Source of the DNA: a virus
Reading direction: 5' to 3' (one strand)
Length of the DNA: 25,242 bases
Virus record (IMG/VR): IMGVR_UViG_3300040808_000817
Location: 1-25,242 of that record
The position numbers and the translations under genes were made by a program. The notes under the pieces are model-generated. The model saw only the letters and a list, made by a program, of their open reading frames with translations, did no database searches and was not told where the DNA came from. Positions 2,272 to 24,322 of the stretch are shown here, in pieces. Position 1 is the stretch's first letter. Each line of letters starts with the position of its first letter.

Positions 2272-2279
2272 TATAAATA
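2272..2279 (+). promoter_or_regulatory. T4-type late promoter box TATAAATA
   Basis: Exact match to the T4 late promoter consensus in the 35-base gap between the hydrolase and the RuvC-like gene. It is followed by a Shine-Dalgarno GGAG at 2286-2289 and the ATG at 2296. In T4 such boxes are read by the gp55/gp33-programmed host polymerase late in infection. The exact match and the intergenic position are seen; function is inferred. Confidence 0.6.
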
Positions 2280-2865: not shown

Positions 2866-3535
2866 CGGTCCCCCAGCTTCAGGCAAAGATGAAGCAGCAA
2901 GTTTATATAAAGAACAGTTTGGATTTGGCAACCTGTCTTTTAAGTATCAATTGTTTAAAGAAACGATTGCACATTTTGGTGTTGATGAAAATTGGTTCAT
3001 GGAAGGTTACGAAGATAGAGATATTAAAGAAAAGAAAGAATTTGCTTTAGGCGATAGGTCAAGAAGAGAAGCAATGATTCATGTATCAGAAGATATCATT
3101 AAACCTAAAAATGGCAAATCGTTCTTTGGTTGGAAAGTATCAAAAGAAATTGAAGAAGGTGTACATTACGCCGTAGCAGATGGTGGATTTGTTGAAGAAC
3201 TTGTACCTTTAATTGAAAAGGTTGGTGCAGAGAATATAGTTGTTGTTCAAATTACAAGAGAAGGACATGATTTTTCAACTGATAGTCGTAGATACTTCAA
3301 TGGTAATCTAATTAAAGAATATGTAATTAATCATCCAACAAAAATAGATAAGACTTTTGTACTTGAACAGAAATTACCAAATATTAACACATATCGTATA
3401 CATAATAATGGTTCAGTCAGAAACTTTCATAATACACTAACTGAGATTTATAATGAACTTAATGAAGAGTTTAAACTTGATAGCACTAACGGACAAATTA
3501 CAGAATCTACCGATACCGAACATAATCAATCTTAA
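2849..3535 (+). CDS. Deoxynucleoside monophosphate kinase-like P-loop protein (T4 gp1-like)
   Basis: A 228-residue P-loop kinase. Walker A lies at the very N-terminus (GPPASGKD, residues 7-14), and the layout fits the T4 gene 1 dNMP kinase family, which phosphorylates dNMPs for phage DNA synthesis. A central lid-like region is rich in Arg and Glu (DRSRREAM) and a YFNG stretch follows. The C-terminal 25 residues look unstructured (Ser, Thr, Asn, Glu rich), and their coding region is shared with the start of the next gene over 83 bases. Substrate range cannot be read from the sequence; a general P-loop nucleotide kinase is the alternative. Confidence 0.75.
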   Translation: MIVIFNGPPASGKDEAASLYKEQFGFGNLSFKYQLFKETIAHFGVDENWFMEGYEDRDIKEKKEFALGDRSRREAMIHVSEDIIKPKNGKSFFGWKVSKEIEEGVHYAVADGGFVEELVPLIEKVGAENIVVVQITREGHDFSTDSRRYFNGNLIKEYVINHPTKIDKTFVLEQKLPNINTYRIHNNGSVRNFHNTLTEIYNELNEEFKLDSTNGQITESTDTEHNQS

Positions 3536-4286
3536 AGAATGTCAAGATCGTAAGTCCTGGACAGAATCAGAATTTCTACGACACGGTGTTAATAATATTA
3601 AAGTACATTCATACGATCGTTATGAGGAAGGCAAAAGTATTGCTTTCGTAGGTGATCCCAGTGTAGTTAATACTACAACTAAAGGTGTAACTTCCTCACA
3701 TTTACTTACTATTAAATGGTGGTATGAAAATACAGATGAAGAATACGGTTTATTCTTCGAAGATGATTTAGATTACGAAACAATTCAATATTGGAATTTT
3801 ACATTAGAAGAATATATTGAAAGATGTAATCAGTGGGATTGGGGAGCATTACATATGTGTAATGTTTTTGAATATCCTTATGATTATCAAAACGAATACA
3901 TTCCGATGGTACCAAAGCGAAGAGAACTCTGGGACCACGGTTTACAAGCATATGCAATTAAAAGAGAATATGCAGAAAAATTAATAGAATATTATTTTGG
4001 AGAATATTCAGATAAGATTCATTATCGTATGCCACTTGGTAGTCCGGTAACAACAGAGAATAATATATTACATGGATTTGGGTTAGTTATTTCCTTTCCT
4101 TTATTCAACCATAATGTAACTGACTTTAGGTCTAAGAATATATATTATTATAACGAACAAGCAAGTTCAGCTTTTTATTCCTACGAGTTCTTAGATGGAT
4201 GGTGGGAAAAGAAAGGTCAGTGGTTATCACTTGATGGCATATTTGATAATGAACGTGAATCACATAAAATTTATGGAGAATTATAA
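3453..4286 (+). CDS. Glycosyltransferase, GT-A type (GT25-like)
   Basis: Predicted to transfer a sugar from a nucleotide-sugar donor. After a variable start, residues 22-32 (PNIINLKECQD) resemble the beginning of GT25/LPS-type glycosyltransferases. An acidic FFEDDLDYE motif at residues 101-109 is the likely metal-binding DxD. The rest is aromatic-rich with no membrane segment, so it is cytoplasmic. The only good starts lie inside the kinase gene (ATG at 3453 or 3462), giving an unusually long overlap of 74-83 bases. The stop and the next ATG form a TAATG overlap, so the two glycosyltransferases are translated together. The acceptor (DNA base, LPS, virion protein) is unknown. Confidence 0.7.
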   Translation: MNLMKSLNLIALTDKLQNLPIPNIINLKECQDRKSWTESEFLRHGVNNIKVHSYDRYEEGKSIAFVGDPSVVNTTTKGVTSSHLLTIKWWYENTDEEYGLFFEDDLDYETIQYWNFTLEEYIERCNQWDWGALHMCNVFEYPYDYQNEYIPMVPKRRELWDHGLQAYAIKREYAEKLIEYYFGEYSDKIHYRMPLGSPVTTENNILHGFGLVISFPLFNHNVTDFRSKNIYYYNEQASSAFYSYEFLDGWWEKKGQWLSLDGIFDNERESHKIYGEL

Positions 4287-5254
4287 TGAGTTGTGTATAT
4301 AAAGGTGAAGTTGTAGAAACAGAACTGTCTAAGAATTCAAAAGGCGGAACTGAAATGATGAGACAGCGCTTAATTGATAATATTGATAAAGAAGTATTAG
4401 AAAAAGTAGCAGTACATTTATCAAGACCAAGAGAATTATACGATGATGTCCCAAATGTACTTTGGTGTCATGACCTCGCAGAAGATCCTGAAAATAAAAT
4501 CTTAAAAGAAGGTGGTTGGGAAAAATTCCATCACTTTGTATTTGTATCTGCATGGCAGCGTGACCAATACATTGTAAGATTTGGTATTCCTTATTCAAGA
4601 TGCTCAGTTATTCATAACGCAGTTGAAGTGAAATACAACCCTAAAGAAAAAGATATGGAAACAATTCGTTTCGTCTATCATACAACTCCACATCGTGGAT
4701 TAGAATTACTTGTTCCTATCTTTGAAACTCTATGCAAAGAATTTGATAATATTCATCTTGACGTATTCTCAGGATTTGAGATTTATGGTTGGGAAGAAAG
4801 AAACGAAGCATATAAAGAAATGTTTAAAAGAATTGAAGACCATGAACAAATGACTTATCATGGTGTTAAATCAAATGATGAAGTTCTCGAAGCTTTAGAC
4901 AAATCTCATATTTTCTTATATCCAAATATTTGGAAAGAAACATCTTGTATTGCATTACTTGAAGCAATTAAATCGCAAATGATTTGTATTCACCCAAATT
5001 ATGGAGCATTACCTGAGACAGGTGCTAATGCAACAATTATGTATGATTGGAATGAAGATATGAATCATCATGCAAATTATGCTTTTGCTGTGACAAGACA
5101 AATACTAACACAAATGAAAAACGATCCCAACTATTTCCATGGATTTACTTTCTCTGATAGATTTAACCTAGCAAGAAACTCAGTTGCTTCATTTGCCACT
5201 ATGTGGAATACTTTACTAAGGAACATTGGTGATGTCTACCAAAAACAAGGATAA
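4286..5254 (+). CDS. Glycosyltransferase, GT-B type (GT4-like)
   Basis: A 322-residue enzyme with GT4 hallmarks. GGTE near residue 20 is the usual glycine-rich acceptor-side loop, and HNAVE near 110 opens the second Rossmann domain. The donor-binding E-x7-E is exact at Glu218 and Glu226 (KETSCIALLE). It has no membrane segment. It starts in a TAATG overlap with the GT-A gene, and its last codons overlap the next gene by 23 bases. Together the two enzymes could build a two-sugar modification. The substrate cannot be deduced. Confidence 0.82.
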   Translation: MSCVYKGEVVETELSKNSKGGTEMMRQRLIDNIDKEVLEKVAVHLSRPRELYDDVPNVLWCHDLAEDPENKILKEGGWEKFHHFVFVSAWQRDQYIVRFGIPYSRCSVIHNAVEVKYNPKEKDMETIRFVYHTTPHRGLELLVPIFETLCKEFDNIHLDVFSGFEIYGWEERNEAYKEMFKRIEDHEQMTYHGVKSNDEVLEALDKSHIFLYPNIWKETSCIALLEAIKSQMICIHPNYGALPETGANATIMYDWNEDMNHHANYAFAVTRQILTQMKNDPNYFHGFTFSDRFNLARNSVASFATMWNTLLRNIGDVYQKQG

Positions 5255-7179: not shown

Positions 7180-7770
7180 ATGACAAAAATGAACTTTAGA
7201 ACAGATAAATTAATACTTGTAGACTGTGATGGTGTACTCCTTGATTGGAAATATGCTTTCTACAGCTTTATGGCTGACAAAGGCCATATTATGCAGGTAC
7301 ACGGTCAATATGAAGTGGCCGAGACATTTGGCATTACAAAAGCCGAAGCTAAGAAACTAATCAGACAGTTTAACGAATCTGCAAGAATCGGATATTTACC
7401 AGGATTAAGAGATGCAATTAAATATGTCAAAAAATTACATGACGAAGGTTATGTATTTCATTGTATTACTAGTCTCAGTACTGATTACTATGCCGGCAAG
7501 TTGAGAGAACAAAATCTTGAAACATTGTTTGGTAAAGGTGTATTTGAGAAAGTAGTTTGCCTTGACTGCGGTGCAGATAAGGACGATGGATTAGCTCCTT
7601 ATAAAGATAGCGGTTGTATCTGGGTTGAAGATAAACCTGAAAACGCAGAATGCGGTCTGAATCTGGGTCTTAGATCTTATCTGATTGCACACGATTTCAA
7701 CGATGATTATAACCATCCTGACATAAGAAAAGTTAGGCTTTGGAAAGAAATCTACGAAGAAATTGTATAA
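7180..7770 (+). CDS. HAD-superfamily phosphatase-like protein
   Basis: A 196-residue HAD-fold protein. Motif I is LVDCDGVLLDW with the nucleophile Asp15 and acid/base Asp17. Motif II is probably CITSLS, and the acidic motif IV region is WVEDKPENAECG. This fits small 5'-nucleotidase-like HAD phosphatases; the substrate is unknown. ATGs at 7168, 7180 and 7189 are in frame. The predicted transcript starts near 7164, so 7168 would be almost leaderless, whereas 7180 has a purine-rich GGAAAAAG before it. I chose 7180. It has its own early-type promoter; a late box overlaps its stop codon and serves the next gene. Confidence 0.75.
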   Translation: MTKMNFRTDKLILVDCDGVLLDWKYAFYSFMADKGHIMQVHGQYEVAETFGITKAEAKKLIRQFNESARIGYLPGLRDAIKYVKKLHDEGYVFHCITSLSTDYYAGKLREQNLETLFGKGVFEKVVCLDCGADKDDGLAPYKDSGCIWVEDKPENAECGLNLGLRSYLIAHDFNDDYNHPDIRKVRLWKEIYEEIV

Positions 7771-7773
7771 ATA
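7766..7773 (+). promoter_or_regulatory. T4-type late promoter box TATAAATA
   Basis: Exact late-promoter match spanning the stop codon of the HAD gene, 29 bases before the next ATG (7803). The position before a gene start supports function, but chance matches to 8 AT bases occur in AT-rich DNA. Confidence 0.5.
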
Positions 7774-7802: not shown

Positions 7803-8048
7803 ATGCCGACATATATCTTTGAAGACACTAACACAGGTGAACAATTTGAAAAGTTCATGTCTATCTCAGCCAGAGAAATCTACCTTCAAGACAACCCACA
7901 TTTAAAGACTATCATATCCTCAGGGCCAACATTGATTGACAGTGCCCGACTTGGTCGCATGAAACCCGACCAAGGTTTTCGTGATTTACTTTCGTCTATG
8001 AAACAAAACAAATCATATACAGGAAACAAAATCAACGACTGGAAGTAA
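7803..8048 (+). CDS. FmdB-like small protein without its zinc ribbon
   Basis: 81 residues. The start MPTYIFEDTNTGEQFEKF matches the beginning of FmdB-type zinc-ribbon regulators (MPTYEY...C..C...FE), but both cysteines of the usual ribbon are missing: the protein has none at all. The rest is soluble with a basic tail. This is either a degenerate FmdB relative that no longer binds zinc or a protein that shares only the opening beta-hairpin. It lies between the HAD gene and phoH. Confidence 0.65.
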   Translation: MPTYIFEDTNTGEQFEKFMSISAREIYLQDNPHLKTIISSGPTLIDSARLGRMKPDQGFRDLLSSMKQNKSYTGNKINDWK

Positions 8049-15584: not shown

Positions 15585-15609
15585 CCTGAGTGCAATCCAA
15601 ACCGGTAAG

Positions 15610-15639
15610 AAGGGTGGTCAAAATAGGCCACCTTTTTTT
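15610..15639 (+). terminator. Intrinsic terminator (probably bidirectional)
   Basis: GGTGGTC (15613-15619) pairs with GGCCACC (15626-15632) around AAAATA, extended by A/G-T pairs, and is followed by seven T (15633-15639). It is a textbook plus-strand terminator. On the minus strand the same hairpin lies directly after the stop of the last gene of the curli-type block, with CTTCTT after it. Confidence 0.88.
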
Positions 15640-16267
15640 ATCTTCTTTGACAGCGCCTTTGCGCTTTTCTTAAAAGCCTAAAGTTATTTACTGTAACTGC
15701 ACCTGTTGTTAAACCTGAGGCAAGTTTCCATCCATACCAAAAATTTTCATCATCAGATGACAAAGCACCAAGTCCACCAATAACAAAAAGTTTTATTCCT
15801 ATCATTTCATGTATCTCAGGTACTTTTGGTAGTAATGGATTTGCTTCGCTTATACAATCATATTTTAATCCACGATAAGTTGAATAGACATCAAGTATTT
15901 GAGAAGAGAAAAATAAAATATCTATCATTCGTTTTTCTCTTTCAGTCCAGTGGTCTATTGTAAAATTGTGTTCTTCTTTTACTTGCCATTTTGGGTCGTA
16001 TCGTAATTGATTGAGTGTAGGAACAAACTCAGGACCATGAGGTAAATTAATAATTGCACCATTTGACATTATTCTTGCTTTACCAACAACGACTCTTTGT
16101 GCTGTTAATTGATTGTAAGGAGCTGTATGTCCTAGTCTAATAAGTTCTTTTCGTGCTTCTGAGAGTTCAGAAATAAATGGGTCCGTTGGAACAAAGCCTG
16201 AGACTGGAACTGCTAATAAAAGCAATCCTAGTAATAAACTACTTAGTCGTCGCGATAAAAATTCCAT
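15638..16267 (-). CDS. Membrane protein with signal peptide, DUF5658-like motif
   Basis: Last gene of the minus-strand block, 209 residues. Residues 1-24 form a signal peptide (SRRLSSLLLGLLLLAVPVSG). The centre is polar; then come segments with DVYSTYRGLKY and EANPLLPKVP, the D...T...E.NP pattern of DUF5658-type small membrane proteins, and two weakly hydrophobic stretches (IGIKLFVIGGLGAL, GWKLASGLTTGAVTV). The tail is very basic (RLLRKAQRRCQRR). It overlaps the cyclase stop by 29 bases, so it is translated with it. Function unknown; it may be the membrane partner of the cyclase or of the fibre system. The DUF5658 link rests only on the motif. Confidence 0.68.
   Translation of the reverse strand: MEFLSRRLSSLLLGLLLLAVPVSGFVPTDPFISELSEARKELIRLGHTAPYNQLTAQRVVVGKARIMSNGAIINLPHGPEFVPTLNQLRYDPKWQVKEEHNFTIDHWTEREKRMIDILFFSSQILDVYSTYRGLKYDCISEANPLLPKVPEIHEMIGIKLFVIGGLGALSSDDENFWYGWKLASGLTTGAVTVNNFRLLRKAQRRCQRR
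15652..15668 (+). terminator. Second hairpin with short T-run
   Basis: AGCGC (15652-15656) and GCGCT (15661-15665) pair around CTTT, followed by TTT. It lies inside the end of the convergent minus-strand gene and could back up the terminator at 15610. Confidence 0.4.
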
Positions 16268-18284
16268 CCCAGTTCCTCGGCAGATCTTGCGTTTTCATAT
16301 ATTCACAACGCTCAATCCACATTTTGTAATAACCTTGCATTTGTCCTTCAAAGCAACCCATAAGGTCATTACATATTTTTATTGCTTTATCAAAATTTTG
16401 TTTCTGATAATTTGAATGCATTGCTTCGTGCATCTCTGCTGGTTTAATATATTTATCTTTATTAAGGTCTAGTACAGTGTATATACCAACTCCTACTGAT
16501 TTTCCTTTTACAGCAAGATCATCTACTTTTAAGAAAAGGAATTCTTCAGGATTACATCTCCTAACTGTTTCTTCTCCTAATAAAAGTAAACATCCGTATT
16601 CTTTACATTTAGACTCGATTCTTGCAGCAGTTGATACTGCATCTCCAAGAATGTCGTAACTGTGTCGTGATGTACTTCCCATTTCACCAACATAACCAAG
16701 ACCGCTATTGATGCCAGCACCCATACCAATGGGTGGTCTACCTTGTTTAATAATCTCTTCATTAAATTTCTCTACCGCTCGTAACATATTAATACCAGTC
16801 ATCACCGCAGTTTTAGCGTGGTCGGTATCTTCCATTGGAGCATTATGTATATGCATACTTGCGTCTCCAATGTATTTGATAATCATTCCATTTGCATCTA
16901 GAACAGGTTGTGTAATGGCATCCATATAACCATTCATCAATGTAGTCAGTCCTTTAACGTCATCTCCAAAGCTTTCGCCTAAAGGAGTAAATCCTCGAAG
17001 ATCCGAGAATACAATACTTACATCTTTTTTCATTCCGTCCTTGACAAGTGAAGGATTTTGTTGTAAAATAGTAACCACTTCTGGAGAACAATAACCAGCG
17101 AACTGTTTCATGATTTCGCGTTTCTCCAAAAATGTTAAATAGTATTTGTTGAATGAAGATTGTGCAAAAACCACTAAGGAAGCTAATGAAACCAAAGATG
17201 CATCAACAAAGGTTAATGAGGAAGTCCAAAACCAGTGACTCACTCCGTATCCGGAACCAACGAGAAGAAGACTCGTTATCACCCCAAGAGTTATGGGAAA
17301 AACATAGACCGCTACAAGGATTCCTAGACTTACTAGGACCAGAAAGAAAAGCTCAAATATTGGCTTCCAGTCGGGAATCGTTATTTGAACGCCTGAGAGG
17401 ACGGTCTGAATTAACTGGGCTTGAACTTCGTGGGGATACATTGCACCCGTTGGGGTTGGTACTGGATTAGAATAGCCTTCTGCGGTTATTCCAAATACTA
17501 AAACTTTACCACTAGGTAATGGTTCTGTTATTGACTGCGATGGAAATTGATTCCAAAAGGCAATTGGTATTTCAGCAAAACTATTTGTTGTGATAGGATC
17601 TTGCTTTCCTATTCGTACCCATTCAACTCCATTAGAGCCTACTTTCATTTGATAGCTTGGTTCTCCTGTGTACACTCGAAGGGTGTCAAGTGCCAAGCTG
17701 GGGTACTGTAATCCATTTGCATTGATAACCAAAGGAGCTCTTCGCACGACGCCGGTGGGTTGGTCAGGGATAGCAACGGTGGCACCAACACCAAAAGCCC
17801 AAGAACTGAGAGCATCAATAGGGAATAAAAGCCCTGGGAATTTATAAAGCCAATTTTCATTTTGTTCTCCGAAAGTAGCAACACCTACAAAGGTGCCAAC
17901 TCCATCTGATGTTTGTTGAGTGGGAGCAGAAGATAATACAACAGCTTTTTCTGCCATTGCTTCTGCGAGTAAATGATCTTCTTTAAATCTATCTTCTTCA
18001 GAGTATATTACGTTAAGAACATATAAGCTGTCGCCAGGACCGTTCCGTATGTAATCAGCAACAGAACCACGAGGCCACGGATACTGACCTTCGGCAGAGA
18101 TTGCTCGTTCGTCGATGTTGACGAGGACAATTTCTTCAACAATCTCTTTTTCTTTATTCTGCTGTAGTGAATCATAATATGCATACTCTATACTTTGAAC
18201 TATTGACGGATTATTTATTGATAAAAGAGCAAAGCCTGTGATAGTTATTAAAACAGTCCACCATTTTGTTAATTGCTTAAGCAT
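16239..18284 (-). CDS. CHASE2-domain class III adenylate cyclase
   Basis: Sensor enzyme of 681 residues predicted to make cAMP. A TM helix (about 8-24) leads into a periplasmic CHASE2 domain (about 30-300; VNIDERAIS, YPWPRG). Three TM helices (about 308-375) and a cytoplasmic cyclase domain (about 420-605) follow. Metal-binding Asp428 (FSDLRGFT) and Asp474 (YIGDAS) are present. Purine-specifying Lys470 and Asp544 (SYDILGD) match adenylate cyclases, with Arg555 and Lys593 (AVKGK) for transition state and phosphate. The transition-state Asn (GDAVN) is Ser551 here. The C-terminal 70 residues are a helical extension seen in CHASE2 cyclases. The start lies 6 bases after the second curlin-like gene. 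Enzyme class firm, activity untested. Confidence 0.92.
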   Translation of the reverse strand: MLKQLTKWWTVLITITGFALLSINNPSIVQSIEYAYYDSLQQNKEKEIVEEIVLVNIDERAISAEGQYPWPRGSVADYIRNGPGDSLYVLNVIYSEEDRFKEDHLLAEAMAEKAVVLSSAPTQQTSDGVGTFVGVATFGEQNENWLYKFPGLLFPIDALSSWAFGVGATVAIPDQPTGVVRRAPLVINANGLQYPSLALDTLRVYTGEPSYQMKVGSNGVEWVRIGKQDPITTNSFAEIPIAFWNQFPSQSITEPLPSGKVLVFGITAEGYSNPVPTPTGAMYPHEVQAQLIQTVLSGVQITIPDWKPIFELFFLVLVSLGILVAVYVFPITLGVITSLLLVGSGYGVSHWFWTSSLTFVDASLVSLASLVVFAQSSFNKYYLTFLEKREIMKQFAGYCSPEVVTILQQNPSLVKDGMKKDVSIVFSDLRGFTPLGESFGDDVKGLTTLMNGYMDAITQPVLDANGMIIKYIGDASMHIHNAPMEDTDHAKTAVMTGINMLRAVEKFNEEIIKQGRPPIGMGAGINSGLGYVGEMGSTSRHSYDILGDAVSTAARIESKCKEYGCLLLLGEETVRRCNPEEFLFLKVDDLAVKGKSVGVGIYTVLDLNKDKYIKPAEMHEAMHSNYQKQNFDKAIKICNDLMGCFEGQMQGYYKMWIERCEYMKTQDLPRNWDGIFIATTK

Positions 18285-18290
18285 CTTGCA

Positions 18291-19076
18291 TTATTCTTGT
18301 AACACACTTACTGAGCAACCACCAACTGTATAACAATCCACTGATAAGTTATATGTTTGATTGGTTGTACCCAATTGTCTGATAAGCGCATCCGTTCCGT
18401 AAATACCGTCTAAAGTAATATTTGCTGTGTGGTTTGCGTTAGTGCCTTTTTGTCTGAACGTTAAAGTATTGTCTGAATTGTAAAGTGTAATGTTTGCTTC
18501 TTTTGCACCTGAATCTTGTTGTCTTCCATCTATCCAATTATCAGACCCAGCAACATGTAAGTTAAAATCATGTCCGTCGGTTGCACCGGTTTGATTTGTT
18601 TGATGCCACTGAAGGTGGTTATCATTACCATATAAATCTATTTCCATATAATGACCACCACCTTCAGCGCCATTATAATTCCAACCTTGTGTGGTATTAT
18701 CAAAAGCAACACCTTGACCTAATTTAAATTCATTACCTGTTCCACTGATTTCATCAAACACAATCGTATTATCATTTCCTTCGTTATTATACTGAACAAT
18801 TAATAAATCAAGTGACGATGCGTTGATATACGAATATTGGTCTAACATTTTAACTTCATTATCAGCACCGTATTGCTGAATCTCTAAATTTAGATTATCA
18901 CCTGTCTGTTCCATAGTAATAAGATTATCTGCTAAAGCAACTAACGGTAAGGTCATTAAAATACCAAATAACAATCCTATTCCAAAGAATACGAATAAAT
19001 CATTACTAGTCCAAATGTGTGGGCCGATTGATTTACGAAACATCTCCCACGCTCTTTTTTCATTTTCGTCTTTCAT
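18291..19076 (-). CDS. Curlin-like repeat protein 2 with long N-terminal export region
   Basis: A 261-residue putative secreted fibre subunit. Residues 1-26 are a long charged cytoplasmic-type region, 27-44 hydrophobic (LFVFFGIGLLFGILMTLPL), then VALA before Asp50, a possible signal peptidase site. From residue 50 the protein is Asn, Gln, Gly and Thr rich, with about eight imperfect repeats of 20-27 residues of the strand-turn-strand type (EQTGDNLNLEIQQYG, VQYNNEGNDN, LYNSDNTLTFRQKG, IRQLGTTNQT), close to the curlin pattern with Q-x-G-x-N. Two Cys lie near the end (VDCYTVGGC). It shares its repeat style and first repeat with the protein at 20208. A GATAAATA sequence, one base off a late box, lies just before its start. 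Confidence 0.8.
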   Translation of the reverse strand: MKDENEKRAWEMFRKSIGPHIWTSNDLFVFFGIGLLFGILMTLPLVALADNLITMEQTGDNLNLEIQQYGADNEVKMLDQYSYINASSLDLLIVQYNNEGNDNTIVFDEISGTGNEFKLGQGVAFDNTTQGWNYNGAEGGGHYMEIDLYGNDNHLQWHQTNQTGATDGHDFNLHVAGSDNWIDGRQQDSGAKEANITLYNSDNTLTFRQKGTNANHTANITLDGIYGTDALIRQLGTTNQTYNLSVDCYTVGGCSVSVLQE

Positions 19077-19084
19077 AATATTAT

Positions 19085-20254
19085 TTATCCTCCTTGTCTG
19101 ATTATAATAATAGAGTTTTGCCCTTGGTTAAGGTCAATGATTCCTTCGTATCCGTCAACTGAAGTGTCAATCTTTACGGATGCGTCGGATGCTAACGAAA
19201 TTTGTATAATTCCATCTACGTTTCTAAAGAATATTATTCTACCGCTTTGTTCAAATATATTATATTGTGAATCTGAATTTAATCCAAAAGTTGCTCCACG
19301 TAATTCTGCTCCTAACGAACTACCTGATATTGCACTATCATCAAGCTTGACTGTTGTTTTAACTAATTCTTCAACCACGTCCAATACATCTGTTAAAAAA
19401 TCAACATCAAGATAATCAATATCAAGCTCTGTAAATTCTAATGCATCATCCTCAAGATAATCAATATCTAATCCATCAAACTCTAAGAAATCTATATCAA
19501 GCAAACCTTGGTCTTTATTTGCGTCATCTGCCAATTCTTCCTCAATAGCTTCTTTCACTTCAGGAGGTGGTGATACAATAAACATATTATCAATCATAGC
19601 AGGAGTAATACCTTGCATTTGAATTTGTCTTGTGGGAGGAGTATCTAAGCTACTTACCATCGTAGCAGCATAAGCTTCATCTAAGGTAATTGTACCACCA
19701 AGATTTGATACCTCTATACTACCTGAAGGATTACCATATTGGTCAGGCAAGAGTATTACAAGTGATCTTCCTAACTCATCAATGGTTGTTGTGAAATCTG
19801 TTCCACGAACTGATACTGTTGCCGTGGGTGTTGAAATGTCAATGTTATTCTTATTGACCATTCCTAAACGACCAGACGCAAATCGAGCTGTGCCTAATGC
19901 CATACGCATTGTCATTTTTGATTTACTTGGATCTGGGTCGTAGTATACTTTGTCTATGTATACTTTTGTGTTTTCTGTTAAACTGAGTTCTGCTTTATCA
20001 AGGAACTGAATAAGCATTCGGCCATTCTCAGTTTCGGCTGTGTCGTTCATTTCAACTTCTGGAACAAATGCACTAGAAACAACAAGCTCTTCACCTGCTT
20101 CTCTAATTAAAGAAGCTGAACCTTTATGTTCAACGATTGCTCCAATTGGATCCGAGCTCGACAATGCCACTCCCGAAAGTAGTAGCAGTGTCGAACACAG
20201 AATTAAATTACGAATCGTTTGAACTGTCTTTCTGATTAATTTGAATTGTCGCAT
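19085..20254 (-). CDS. FecR-domain exported protein with acidic repeats and curlin-like tail
   Basis: 389 residues. Signal peptide at 1-31 (basic start, then LILCSTLLLLSGVALS). FecR-type domain at about 35-200: GSASLIREAGE, ENGRMLIQFLDKAELSL, TPTATVSVRGTDFT. FecR domains in such envelope proteins are thought to bind peptides or glycan or pass signals. Residues about 251-293 are acidic tandem repeats (LDIDYLEDDALEF type, no Lys or Arg), possibly metal-binding or a spacer. The C-terminal 60 residues (NIFEQSGRIIFF, DLNQGQNSIIIIRQGG) look like curlin repeats, so it could dock to the fibre. ATG 20254 is used since its basic N-region fits; it overlaps the preceding gene by 47 bases. The pairing with a CHASE2 cyclase also occurs in bacteria as far as I recall. 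Confidence 0.83.
   Translation of the reverse strand: MRQFKLIRKTVQTIRNLILCSTLLLLSGVALSSSDPIGAIVEHKGSASLIREAGEELVVSSAFVPEVEMNDTAETENGRMLIQFLDKAELSLTENTKVYIDKVYYDPDPSKSKMTMRMALGTARFASGRLGMVNKNNIDISTPTATVSVRGTDFTTTIDELGRSLVILLPDQYGNPSGSIEVSNLGGTITLDEAYAATMVSSLDTPPTRQIQMQGITPAMIDNMFIVSPPPEVKEAIEEELADDANKDQGLLDIDFLEFDGLDIDYLEDDALEFTELDIDYLDVDFLTDVLDVVEELVKTTVKLDDSAISGSSLGAELRGATFGLNSDSQYNIFEQSGRIIFFRNVDGIIQISLASDASVKIDTSVDGYEGIIDLNQGQNSIIIIRQGG
19407..19468. repeat. Two 17-base direct repeats inside the FecR-type gene
   Basis: TCAAGATAATCAATATC occurs at 19407-19423 and again at 19452-19468, 45 bases (15 codons) apart. It encodes the LDIDYL units, part of an at least threefold tandem acidic repeat, so the region probably grew by duplication. 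Confidence 0.85.
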
Positions 20255-20942
20255 TTTCAGAATCTATGTCCAAAGTGATTATTCCATTACAAGTAGTTAC
20301 ACCTGTTGGACAAGTACCACTGATTTGGTTAATATCAATATCAGCAGAAGAACCAACGTGAGTCACGTTAATTTCATGCTCCGCTCCGTCTTTCTGTAAT
20401 GTCTTGATATTATTACTTCCACCAGTAATATCAAAATTCCAAATTGCGTCGTCAACATCAATGTCGACATCAAAAATGTTACTGTCTCCAATAACTGTTA
20501 AATCAAAATCTAATCTTTCAGCACTTGCATTATAACCTTGGTCAAAGTCCATAGTGTTAGAATCACCAGTAAAGTCAACATCAAATGTTGAACTATCCGA
20601 TGAACCAACATAACCTACGTTCCAATCCCAAATGTTAGAATCTCCAGTCCATAATAAGTTAGCAGTTGTACTGTCACCTATGTATGTTCCGAATAATAAG
20701 TTTTCGTTACCAATTTGGTCAATGTTAAAAGTTAACGATGAACCTGTAATTGGCATAGCGCTTGAGCTTGACGAAAAATCATCTAACCCAATTTTGTTAC
20801 CGTAACCATATTGGTCGATATACAAAGTAAGAGTATCACCATCTTGTTCGATGTTGATTTCATTATCGTCAGTCGCTTGTGCGAATGCTACATTGTTGAA
20901 AGAGAATAAACATAATAAAGATAGGCCTAATATTCTTTTCAT
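20208..20942 (-). CDS. Curlin-like repeat protein 1 (putative secreted fibre subunit)
   Basis: 244 residues. A standard Sec signal peptide ends at AFA (about residue 21). The mature part is Asp, Asn, Ser, Gly and Ile rich, with about eight repeats of 22-25 residues of alternating hydrophobic strands and a G-D/S-N turn (INIEQDGDTLTLYIDQYG, FTGDSNTMDFDQG, VIGDSNIFDVD), the strand-turn-strand layout of curlin (CsgA/CsgB) beta-solenoids. Only some repeats keep the Gln pairs of true CsgA, and the protein is much more acidic. A Cys pair near the end (GTCPTGVTTC) matches one in the second repeat protein. The start overlaps the csgG stop (TAATG). It is the likely substrate of the CsgG pore encoded just before it. 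Confidence 0.83.
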   Translation of the reverse strand: MKRILGLSLLCLFSFNNVAFAQATDDNEINIEQDGDTLTLYIDQYGYGNKIGLDDFSSSSSAMPITGSSLTFNIDQIGNENLLFGTYIGDSTTANLLWTGDSNIWDWNVGYVGSSDSSTFDVDFTGDSNTMDFDQGYNASAERLDFDLTVIGDSNIFDVDIDVDDAIWNFDITGGSNNIKTLQKDGAEHEINVTHVGSSADIDINQISGTCPTGVTTCNGIITLDIDSENATIQINQKDSSNDS

Positions 20943-21886
20943 TATTCTTCCTCTATTTTATTGTTAATAGTCCAGAAGCCACGTTCGTCGCCCTGGTATA
21001 CCATCTCTAGTACTGCAGCTTCAATTGCTGTTCGTACTGCATATGTCACACTCTCATTATTTCCAATCCCGTCCTCATATTCAATCAATTGAGTACCTTG
21101 CTCTATAAAGCGGAAGACGTCTCCTCCTGAACCGTAGCTCAAGATTGATTTCTTTGCTTGGACATTTAATAATATCTCACCTGTAAGAACCGAAACTGCA
21201 CGCACAGATACTGTGACTACATCTTGACGATACTGACGGCTAAAGCTAATACCTAAAGTTCTAGCTCCTCGGCCTCCGGTCTTTACATTACTATCATAAC
21301 CTATGATGCCGCCCTCAATAATCATTCCTGCGAATAATAAAGGTCCAACACCTTTTGGTTCTTCGCCCAGTTTCTTCGCCGCTTCATCACGACCTGAACG
21401 AATAATCTGTCTTTCTCTAACAAGAGCATCAATCCCTTGTCTTTCTACAACTCTAAACCAAGTTCCCCCACCTGCTGTTTTCAGAGCGTCTATTAATAAT
21501 TCTGTTCCACCTTGAGTCACAGCAGTTGAAAAACTTTGTCCTGTCTGTGAATCTTTTCTTTGTCCTGTTTTATCTATAAAATTGTAAACAGCAACCACAG
21601 GCATATTTTCTGCAGGTGGTAAATTCAGTAAATCAATGTATGAAGGTAACTTTACAACTTCAGGTTGCTCTACACATATTTGTTTTGTCTCAATATATTT
21701 ACGAGTACCTGTTTTGATTTTATCAATTACTAAGCCATCTCCATTTTCATCTCTAACTTTATTAAATCCTTGCGCATACTTACCTTCACCGTATTCACAG
21801 TTCGCAGGTCCTTCTGACCACTGCGGCATTTGCGCACAACTTGCTAAAATTAATGTTGAGAGGAGTGCGGATAATAATTTAGCCAT
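20942..21886 (-). CDS. csgG: CsgG-like curli secretion pore (outer-membrane lipoprotein)
   Basis: 314 residues. Lipoprotein signal LILASC gives the lipidated Cys17. An extra segment of about 75 residues, with two further Cys, precedes the CsgG domain. From residue 97 it aligns in memory with E. coli CsgG: VVAVYNFIDKTGQ, SFSTAVTQ, VERQGIDALVRERQIIR, IEGGIIGYDSNVKTGG (TM1 region), VSVLTGEILLNV, ILSYGSGGDVFRFI, RGFW. CsgG forms a nine-subunit outer-membrane channel for curli subunits. In the constriction loop (112-119) the E. coli Tyr51 and Asn55 are replaced; Phe119 matches Phe56. ATG 21886 lies inside the csgF stop region (GGCTAA). Identification is firm; the partner fibre is inferred from neighbours. 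Confidence 0.93.
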   Translation of the reverse strand: MAKLLSALLSTLILASCAQMPQWSEGPANCEYGEGKYAQGFNKVRDENGDGLVIDKIKTGTRKYIETKQICVEQPEVVKLPSYIDLLNLPPAENMPVVAVYNFIDKTGQRKDSQTGQSFSTAVTQGGTELLIDALKTAGGGTWFRVVERQGIDALVRERQIIRSGRDEAAKKLGEEPKGVGPLLFAGMIIEGGIIGYDSNVKTGGRGARTLGISFSRQYRQDVVTVSVRAVSVLTGEILLNVQAKKSILSYGSGGDVFRFIEQGTQLIEYEDGIGNNESVTYAVRTAIEAAVLEMVYQGDERGFWTINNKIEEE

Positions 21887-22391
21887 TTGGATCGCTTCCA
21901 AAGTTTCCTGTTCCTATCGGAATCTCAATAACAGTTGTCGTACCATCTTCATCTACAATTGTCATCTTAATAAATTCTGTACCGTCTGCATTTGTAATAA
22001 CTTCATATGTTACTGTTGAACCTTCTAAAACAAAAGATCCAAACCTTACTGCGTTATCGTTAGAGAACATATTGTCCACCAACTGTTTTGCTAACTGAGC
22101 ATAAATTCTACTCTCAAGGTTTCTTATAAACTTTGATAACGTTGAATTGTCCAATTCTCTTTGTGCTGCACGTTCAGCTGCATCTAATGCATCTCTGATT
22201 GCTTTCTTTCTTGTATGTTCTTGATTCTCGATAGTGAGATAATGAGCACCAGTTCCAACACCGCTGAAACTTGGATTTTTAAACTTATGTACGATAGGTT
22301 CTCCGTATGCTTTACCTGCTGCTAAAAACAGATACATTATTACAATAACCCAACCTATTCCTAATAAAGCTTTATCAGTCTTGTTGTCCAT
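21879..22391 (-). CDS. csgF: CsgF-like curli assembly protein
   Basis: 170 residues. Hydrophobic export segment at 8-29 (LLGIGWVIVIMYLFLAAGKAYG), then the CsgF hallmark HKFKNPSFSGVGTGAHYL at the mature N-terminus, the part that in E. coli plugs into the CsgG channel (FRNPNFGG). It is followed by a helical neck (residues 60-110) and a C-terminal beta part (STVTYEVI, KMTIVDEDGTTTVIEIP). CsgF helps anchor fibre nucleation at the cell surface. The start is ATG 22391 with AGGTGAG about 5 bases before it; a GTG at 22400 is unlikely. Gene order csgF-csgG as in the curli operon. No csgE-like gene is visible in the block. Confidence 0.9.
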   Translation of the reverse strand: MDNKTDKALLGIGWVIVIMYLFLAAGKAYGEPIVHKFKNPSFSGVGTGAHYLTIENQEHTRKKAIRDALDAAERAAQRELDNSTLSKFIRNLESRIYAQLAKQLVDNMFSNDNAVRFGSFVLEGSTVTYEVITNADGTEFIKMTIVDEDGTTTVIEIPIGTGNFGSDPNG

Positions 22392-22647
22392 CTTTCTCAC
22401 CTTTTTTCTTCAATTCTTCTATTTCTTTATACTTAAGAACAACATCAACCTTTTGTTGTAATCTTATAAGATCTTGGTCAAGCATTCTCATTCTATCAAT
22501 TAACCTAATCAAAGCCATGTGTTGCTTATCAATTTCCGGCTGAAGCTTGTCGTTTACAAACCTCCAAACAAAATATACAAAGTACCCAAGTCCTACCACC
22601 ATCACAGCAGGAAATCCGTACTCATTAACTAAATTCGCAATGTCCAT
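22375..22647 (-). CDS. Small membrane protein, holin/BhlA-like layout (paralogue of the next)
   Basis: 90 residues. One TM helix near the N-terminus (FPAVMVVGLGYFVYFVWRFV, about 12-31), then a long charged coiled-coil-like tail ending in a Lys/Glu-rich tract. This layout is that of BhlA/UviB-type holin-like proteins, and the N-terminal half aligns with the neighbouring gene product (L-x-x-x-x-G-x-P, G-x-F-x-x-F). It could be a holin or an inner-membrane part of the secretion system. It starts 4 bases after the previous stop and overlaps csgF. Confidence 0.62.
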   Translation of the reverse strand: MDIANLVNEYGFPAVMVVGLGYFVYFVWRFVNDKLQPEIDKQHMALIRLIDRMRMLDQDLIRLQQKVDVVLKYKEIEELKKKGEKDGQQD

Positions 22648-22651
22648 TATT

Positions 22652-22948
22652 TTAATCTCTTCTTACGTCAACTTTTCCGTCTTCAACAAAATTTTCAGCG
22701 CGAGCTACTCTTTCAATATCCGGGTTTAACCCTAAGGCACTCGAAACAAGAAGGTCAATCTTGACCATCTCATTGGACATTGTCCTTGCTCGGTTCTCTA
22801 ATGATTCGGCAAACATTGTTAGTGTACCAATGTTATCAATAATTCCTTCAAAGATTTGCTTAATAATAATGAATATAAAGAATCCCATTGTAAGAGCGCC
22901 AGCAATAGGTAAACCAACGTCAGATATTAGTTGAAATATTTCTTCCAT
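22652..22948 (-). CDS. Small membrane protein, holin/BhlA-like layout
   Basis: First gene of the minus-strand block, 98 residues. One TM helix (LPIAGALTMGFFIFIIIKQI, about 12-31), then a helical amphipathic tail with a coiled-coil look. Similar in plan and in several positions to the next gene product, so probably an old tandem duplication. ATG 22948 is preferred; an upstream TTG extension would span the late promoter box. No clear ribosome site precedes it. Function open: holin-type pore or envelope partner of the fibre system. Confidence 0.62.
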   Translation of the reverse strand: MEEIFQLISDVGLPIAGALTMGFFIFIIIKQIFEGIIDNIGTLTMFAESLENRARTMSNEMVKIDLLVSSALGLNPDIERVARAENFVEDGKVDVRRD

Positions 22949-22953
22949 ACCGT

Positions 22954-22961
22954 TATTTATA
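22954..22961 (-). promoter_or_regulatory. T4-type late promoter box TATAAATA driving the curli-type block
   Basis: Exact late-promoter box on the minus strand, 5 bases before ATG 22948. Initiation some 5 bases after the box would make the message nearly leaderless. It is the only convincing promoter found for the nine-gene block. The rest of the 242-base divergent gap (22949-23190) holds no ORF I trust, only AT-rich DNA, a CTAGAGG direct repeat and the promoter at 23138. Confidence 0.55.
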
Positions 22962-23978: not shown

Positions 23979-24065
23979 GCCTCGGTGGTGAAATAGGTAA
24001 ACACAAGAGACTTAAAATCTCTCGCTCGTAAGAGCTTGTCGGTTCGATTCCGACTCGAGGCACCA
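23979..24065 (+). tRNA. tRNA-Leu(UAA)
   Basis: Acceptor GCCTCGG pairs with TCGAGGC (one G-U). The anticodon arm AGAGA-CTTAAAA-TCTCT gives anticodon TAA. A long variable arm (GCTCGTAAGAGC) is typical of tRNA-Leu. T-arm GTCGG-TTCGATT-CCGAC. CCA is encoded. It reads UUA, a common codon in this AT-rich genome. Confidence 0.95.
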
Positions 24066-24070
24066 AATAT

Positions 24071-24146
24071 AGGACTGTAGCTCAATGGTTAGAGCATCCG
24101 TCTTATAAGCGGAAGGTCGGTGGTTCAACTCCACCCAGTCCTACCA
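24071..24146 (+). tRNA. tRNA-Ile(UAU)
   Basis: A 76-base standard cloverleaf: acceptor AGGACTG/CAGTCCT, D-arm GCTC/GAGC, anticodon arm TCCGT-CTTATAA-GCGGA with anticodon TAT, T-arm GGTGG/CCACC, CCA encoded. It reads AUA. Most bacteria use a CAU tRNA modified by TilS for this codon, so a true UAU anticodon is notable. Confidence 0.93.
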
Positions 24147-24153
24147 AGTAGTA

Positions 24154-24241
24154 GGAGAAGTGGCAGAGTGGTTGAATGCACAGGTCTTGAAAACCTGCGA
24201 ACTGAAAGGTTCCGTGAGTTCGAATCTCACCTTCTCCGCCA
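24154..24241 (+). tRNA. tRNA-Ser(UGA)
   Basis: Acceptor GGAGAAG/CTTCTCC, anticodon arm CAGGT-CTTGAAA-ACCTG with anticodon TGA, a long variable arm as in tRNA-Ser, encoded CCA. Reads UCA. Confidence 0.95.
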
Positions 24242-24245
24242 AATC

Positions 24246-24322
24246 CGGAGTATAGCGCAGCCTGGTAGCGCATCTGCTTTGGGAGCAGAGGGTCATAGGT
24301 TCGAATCCTATTACTCCGACCA
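24246..24322 (+). tRNA. tRNA-Pro(UGG)
   Basis: Acceptor CGGAGTA/TACTCCG with the C1-G72 pair typical of bacterial tRNA-Pro, anticodon arm TCTGC-TTTGGGA-GCAGA with anticodon TGG, encoded CCA. Reads CCA. Confidence 0.95.

Follow-up and report, generated by a model that had tools for sequence, protein, structure and literature searches.

The DNA analysed here, referred to as the window, is a marine viral stretch of 25,242 bases (IMG/VR record IMGVR_UViG_3300040808_000817, positions 1 to 25,242) and is probably a fragment. Its minus strand carries, at 15638-22948, a block of nine intact open reading frames (ORFs) whose identity as a curli-type (type VIII) secretion module is virtually certain. 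In the direction of transcription the genes are sm1, sm2, csgF, csgG, cur1, fecR, cur2, a CHASE2 cyclase gene and a DUF5658-like gene, and neighboring genes overlap or are separated by no more than 8 bases. The genes to either side of the block are on the plus strand, as the initial annotation described. The same opposed orientation is found in near relatives; in other clades the module is co-oriented with its flanks. The features of the locus are the following.

22954..22961, minus strand: T4-type late promoter motif TATAAATA, read from the sequence, 13 nt upstream of the first ATG of the block.
22652..22948, minus strand: sm1, a small membrane protein of 98 aa (phrog_18771) with an apparent N-terminal helix and a coiled-coil-like tail ending in RRD.
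22375..22647, minus strand: sm2, a paralogue of sm1 of 90 aa (phrog_18771; by alignment).
21879..22400, minus strand: CsgF homologue, the pore partner (PF10614, E=1.5e-16; phrog_35372).
20942..21886, minus strand: CsgG homologue, the outer-membrane secretion pore (PF03783, E=4.6e-52), with a lipobox-like LASC.
20208..20942, minus strand: cur1, an exported curlin-repeat protein of 244 aa with a signal-peptide-like start (PF07012, Curlin_rpt, E=2.7e-05).
19085..20254, minus strand: FecR-domain protein of 389 aa with a signal-peptide-like start (PF04773, E=1.1e-09, residues 72-160; phrog_37870).
18291..19076, minus strand: cur2, a second curlin-like exported protein of 261 aa, recognized by the curlin motif (Curlin_rpt 0.01, under the cut-off).
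16239..18284, minus strand: CHASE2 class III adenylate cyclase of 681 aa (PF05226, 1.1e-29; PF00211, Guanylate_cyc, 5e-17; phrog_35576, E=8.9e-143).
15638..16267, minus strand: facultative ninth gene of 209 aa, DUF5658-like, with a signal-peptide-like start (PF18902, E=3.5e-05, slightly under the cut-off).
15607..15638, no strand assigned: terminator-like hairpin closing the block, with a 13-bp stem containing 5 G-C pairs, a T-run on the plus side and a weaker tail on the minus side.

CsgF and CsgG, recognized in the initial annotation, both match their Pfam families above the cut-off, and the curlin motif is present in both exported subunits, as in type VIII systems. The curlin repeat motif N-x-h-x-h-x-Q, as defined in PMC10192328, occurs three times in cur1 and four times in cur2, compared with 0.2 and 0.3 times in shuffled sequences, respectively, and was found in all relatives of cur1 (46) and of cur2 (38). 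Both curlins contain conserved cysteines, including a C-terminal pair in cur2 (C248 is invariant and C254 is at least 90% conserved); Cys17 of CsgG is conserved to at least 90%. The predicted structure of cur1 is all-beta (pLDDT 82.5), and that of cur2 has a helical N-terminus followed by a beta-rich region (pLDDT 83.4); both models are of moderate confidence. The block resembles the E. coli curli system (csgBAC/csgDEFG) in having a CsgG lipoprotein pore, CsgF and Sec-exported curlin subunits. Unlike the E. coli system, it lacks CsgE, CsgC and CsgD, contains instead the FecR-domain protein, the cyclase and the sm pair, and has degenerate repeats.

The first account of the operon is that of Zaragoza-Solas et al. 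(2020; PMC7029224). It was followed by a report from Wittmers et al. (2022; PMC9599517) of podoviral and myoviral pelagiphages with one or two "histidine kinase" genes, CsgF, CsgG, CsgA/B, FecR, frequently a second CsgA/B, and adenylate cyclase (AC), in conserved order; they argued for an alphaproteobacterial origin and found phage curli modules to be widespread in the ocean. The window has the same order, small gene(s)-csgF-csgG-curlin-fecR-(curlin)-AC, to which it adds the DUF5658-like gene and a Ser subtype of the cyclase. All eight core genes also occur in this order in the Methylophilales phage Melnitz (MZ577097) and the Pelagibacter phage HTVC008M (KC465899), whose cyclases are 47% and 33% identical to that of the window. 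In these two phages the module is co-oriented with the upstream genes rather than inverted on both sides, and a DUF5658 gene was not found. Melnitz is evidence that hosts of the module include OM43 besides SAR11. Its csgA/B was said to be missing (PMC9004378); the GenBank record contradicts this, annotating two curlin-repeat genes (52015-54809), FecR and the cyclase. Since PMC9599517, Melnitz and HTVC008M already show the module, the initial view of the joint system as little described fails, and the window is a further member of the known pelagiphage type VIII module. The TATAAATA late promoter is not reported in the pelagiphage papers covered by a literature search that excluded bioRxiv preprints and included few subscription papers. 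Among phage records, the 1,499-base "Salmonella phage" OR851715.1 encodes CsgG and is likely a host csgG deposited as phage.

Co-occurrence was scored, for each search, in the 80 nearest loci, which are mutually related. Among distinct CsgG-seeded loci with enough flanking DNA, csgF and both sm genes were present in 51 of 51, cur1 and fecR in 44 of 44, and the second curlin and the cyclase in 30 of 30. Co-occurrence is thus complete in these loci wherever the flanking DNA reaches. The ratio of nonsynonymous to synonymous substitution (dN/dS) ranges from 0.02 to 0.33 across the eight core genes (approximate values, with dS near saturation), indicating purifying selection. Module ORFs are intact in most relatives, and gene order is fixed across many contigs. 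Co-occurrence and dN/dS support the initial view that a pore with its partner, a pair of exported curlin-like proteins, a FecR-domain protein and a cyclase constitute a single unit.

The lone TATAAATA match ahead of the block is no more than expected by chance in the window and is not counted as evidence alone. Two other copies occur in the window, at 2272-2279 (plus strand), 12 nt ahead of a RuvC-like resolvase gene at 2284, and at 7766-7773 (plus strand), upstream of an ORF at 7803. For 120 distinct eight-gene loci, the 120 bp preceding sm1 were scored for the motif and the count was compared with a Markov null. It was present in 74 of the 120 loci (null mean 1.9, maximum 5), and in 56 of 88 after similar regions were collapsed; the relaxed form ATAAATA was present in 99 of 120. 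Forty-three of the TATAAATA sites are located exactly at -13 from the conserved sm1 ATG. Genes inside the module seldom have the motif ahead of them (1/120, 0/112, 1/110, 1/106, 7/93 and 0/91, the peak of 7/93 being at cur2). In Melnitz, it precedes gp18, gp22, gp23, baseplate and tail-fibre genes, gp32, hsp20 and sm1, but not the DNA polymerase, recA or helicase genes, and this phage also annotates gp33, a late sigma factor and gp45. The distribution of the motif argues that the module is probably a late-expressed unit in phages with the eight-gene form. Scans for sigma-70 promoters gave matches at chance level only. Late promoters could not be predicted in pelagimyophages in the earlier study (PMC7029224).

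The T4 late motif is positioned at -13 to -6 of the transcription start site (PMC1524935). A motif at -13 from the sm1 ATG places the predicted start on the AUG, and the message is therefore possibly leaderless. This geometry is not universal, since in Melnitz the motif and the annotated start of sm1 are 7 nt apart. The gp55 gene is annotated in Melnitz and was found in HTVC008M and in the further record G784; protein searches did not detect it in the window or in G779, G780 and G783, where the records may be fragments or the protein may have diverged. The T4-like label of the initial annotation is correct by kinship: gp23, the T4 major capsid gene, lies approximately 5 kb from the module in close relatives, and none was found in the window itself.

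The module occurs in two phage forms: a long form of eight genes that has the late promoter, and a short form of approximately six genes that lacks it. The short form emerged when the bacterial FecR described below was used as the search seed, and it most commonly consists of one sm gene, csgF, csgG, a single curlin, fecR and the cyclase. All 41 short loci contain csgG, csgF, a curlin and the cyclase, and six of them a second curlin. No gp23 was found in the nine short-form contigs tested, which are fragments. The short form may correspond to the podovirus-type modules of PMC9599517.

The sm1 and sm2 proteins have, by alignment, a single apparent N-terminal helix followed by a helical charged tail, and members of the family are 83-126 aa in size. 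Their dN/dS values (0.03-0.04 for sm1 and 0.02-0.06 for sm2, approximate with dS near saturation) are the lowest in the block. Sixteen members of each were searched for HisKA and HATPase domains, and none was found at E <=1; the sole related match was to a HAMP domain (E=0.15). The published "histidine kinase" label is thus unsupported. A weak similarity to the phrog_4898 "holin" family was seen in 12 of 16 sm2 members (best E 1.1e-4) and 8 of 16 sm1 members (best E 0.008), with matches also in 5 of 14 control genomes. Neither the Melnitz genome, nor the contigs of two relatives, nor the window has a phrog_4898 match other than sm1 and sm2. The faint holin similarity is a lead, not a classification. 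No convincing match to PDB sequences was found for either protein. Among annotated phages, sm1 and sm2 were found in the Melnitz strains and HTVC008M alone, and in an sm1-seeded search csgG lay directly downstream of sm1 in all 64 loci with room for it.

A bacterial version of the module is present on a 705-kb contig of the metagenome-assembled genome (MAG) of Hyphomonas sp. TMED17 (NHBW01000006, locus L179), with the order csgF-csgG-curlin-FecR-CHASE2 cyclase. It shares the gene order of the window but has one long curlin (504 aa) and a cyclase with the canonical Asn, and sm1/sm2 are not present. The surrounding sequence reads as genes for metabolic enzymes and a TonB-receptor-like gene. Wittmers et al. 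(PMC9599517) stated that FecR and cyclase do not occur in bacterial curli operons; the Hyphomonas operon contains both and is therefore a counter-example, from a single MAG contig. Its CsgG groups with the phage sequences (support 100/99) on a long branch, compatible with transfer in either direction. The operon is rare: one clear case of a phage-like CsgF was found in 398 genomes of the Hyphomonas order, and FecR matches in the class were far weaker and mostly within large proteins. The lack of sm1 and sm2 in this closest bacterial version suggests that phages added the pair. The same contig scan returned other loci that carry the phage module with sm genes (L172-L178, L180, L181, L183, L192 and L246). 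They lie in GTDB MAGs assigned to Bacteroidota, Planctomycetota, Synechococcus or Rhodobacteraceae, and are probably mis-binned phage DNA.

The FecR-domain protein, whose layout was read by eye from sequence, has a short basic N-terminus, a signal-peptide-like stretch and then the FecR domain. FecR regulators of iron-citrate transport have a cytoplasmic N-domain, a single membrane helix and a periplasmic FecR domain. Because the start of the window protein is signal-peptide-like and its layout differs from that of the iron-citrate regulators, its labelling as an iron-dependent regulator is doubtful. In the cyclase, the metal-binding residues Asp428 and Asp474, the substrate residue Lys470 and the transition-state Arg555 are invariant in 75 of 75 relatives. 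Position 551, that of the transition-state Asn, is Ser in the window and in 48 of the 75 relatives and Asn in 27; Asn is also found in short-form phages. The Ser551 type always occurs with Asp544. By analogy with the Ma1120 cyclase, which is active with Ala at this position (PMC4215837), the substitution need not abolish activity. In some relatives, genes resembling iron-sulfur assembly genes lie between cur2 and the cyclase (L142, 9063-9843; L151, 13467-13922); by eye they are NifU-like and, in L142, also A-type carrier-like.

Three small membrane proteins had been proposed initially. Two are indeed small, namely the paralogues sm1 and sm2; the ninth gene product, at 209 aa, is instead a facultative, fast-evolving add-on. 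The ninth gene was present in 24 of 30 near loci and in none of the phage records. It was rejected as a core member because many relatives lack it or have it elsewhere, and because no other gene of the block evolves faster. The neighboring plus-strand genes resemble phage genes (DNA ligase, RuvC-like resolvase, exonucleases and PhoH), and several have homologues in Melnitz. An Rfam scan of the window found no riboswitch near the block; its sole matches were four tRNAs (Leu-TAA, Ile-TAT, Ser-TGA and Pro-TGG) at 23979-24322 on the plus strand, approximately 1 kb away from the module on its promoter side. Two glycosyltransferase genes lie side by side at 3453-5254 (plus strand), and an endolysin-like gene is located at 1727-2260.

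The reading we prefer is that of a phage-borne type VIII secretion operon that produces a fibre late in infection; as a whole, its chances are about even. The late sigma system would start the message at or beside the first AUG, and CsgG with CsgF would build a pore in the outer membrane. The two Sec-exported curlin-like proteins, one of them probably a nucleator, would cross this pore and form a curli-like fibre on the infected cell. Secretion of such a fibre is somewhat favored. Together with the CHASE2 cyclase, the FecR-domain protein of the periplasm could act as a sensor pair that converts the state of the envelope or of secretion into cyclic AMP (cAMP), and the sm1/sm2 pair could adapt the operon to the phage from within the inner membrane. 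Around lysis, fibres and debris might keep progeny and neighboring hosts together, the "sibling capture" proposed in PMC7029224. This payoff is tentative, and would be likeliest around lysis because expression is late.

Several observations weigh against this reading. The curlin repeats are degenerate, and the models of cur1 and cur2 match no solved fibre in a PDB fold comparison (nothing at E <0.02). CsgE was not found, and neither CsgE nor CsgC has a Pfam match among the nine ORFs, as was also the case in PMC9599517. However, curli formation is possible without CsgE (PMC7029224), and its absence therefore does not exclude membership in type VIII. The late motif is absent from the short, non-gp23 form (0 of 46), so late control by TATAAATA is not universal, and gp55 was undetected by protein search in two close-relative contigs. 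The relatives compared are non-independent samples. Finally, OM43 cultures infected with Melnitz showed no clumping (PMC9004378).

The late promoter also fits a lysis-stage machine, in which sm1/sm2 would act like holins in the inner membrane, CsgG/CsgF would perforate the outer membrane, lysis would be timed or assisted, and the curlins would be secondary. The apparent single-helix architecture of sm1/sm2, their phrog_4898 similarity and the pinholin-like role proposed for CsgG in PMC9004378 are consistent with such a machine. We nevertheless consider it unlikely: the similarity to holins is weak (E 5e-4 to 0.03), is absent in HTVC008M and is shared by control genomes; the conserved curlins, FecR and cyclase, as well as their sm-less bacterial operon, are left unexplained; and module-free phages must lyse otherwise. 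Late timing is a difficulty for two other proposals. A fibre coat could plausibly mask receptors and shield the infected cell from adsorption of competing phages (proposed in PMC9599517), but exclusion should pay most early, for which a late promoter is poorly timed. An early superinfection block is therefore disfavored as the main job, and we regard the shield as quite unlikely. It is very unlikely that CsgG, ungated because the CsgE gate is missing, serves to admit nutrients or cofactors during replication, as proposed in PMC7029224 and PMC9599517; the curlins and CsgF are conserved together with the pore, and late production is ill-suited to feeding replication. A decaying, functionless passenger module would fit the lack of curli genes in the hosts of isolated carriers (PMC9004378 and PMC9599517), but the low dN/dS of the eight core genes, the mostly intact ORFs and the fixed order make it exceedingly improbable.

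The results add to the known module probable late control, a mislabelled phage-specific sm pair, a bacterial counterpart, and a long and a short form. They provide three testable handles, namely the timing of production, the parts that the phage added and the minimal unit, and they question two published labels, histidine kinase for the sm genes and iron regulator for FecR. A more speculative possibility, which we consider improbable on present evidence, is that T4-like phages recast a rare bacterial curli-FecR-cyclase operon as a lysis-stage device by placing holin-like sm1/sm2 in front, under a late and possibly leaderless message. If true, one late programme would combine amyloid secretion with cAMP output and the opening of the envelope, and progeny would be left in a fibre mat together with new hosts.

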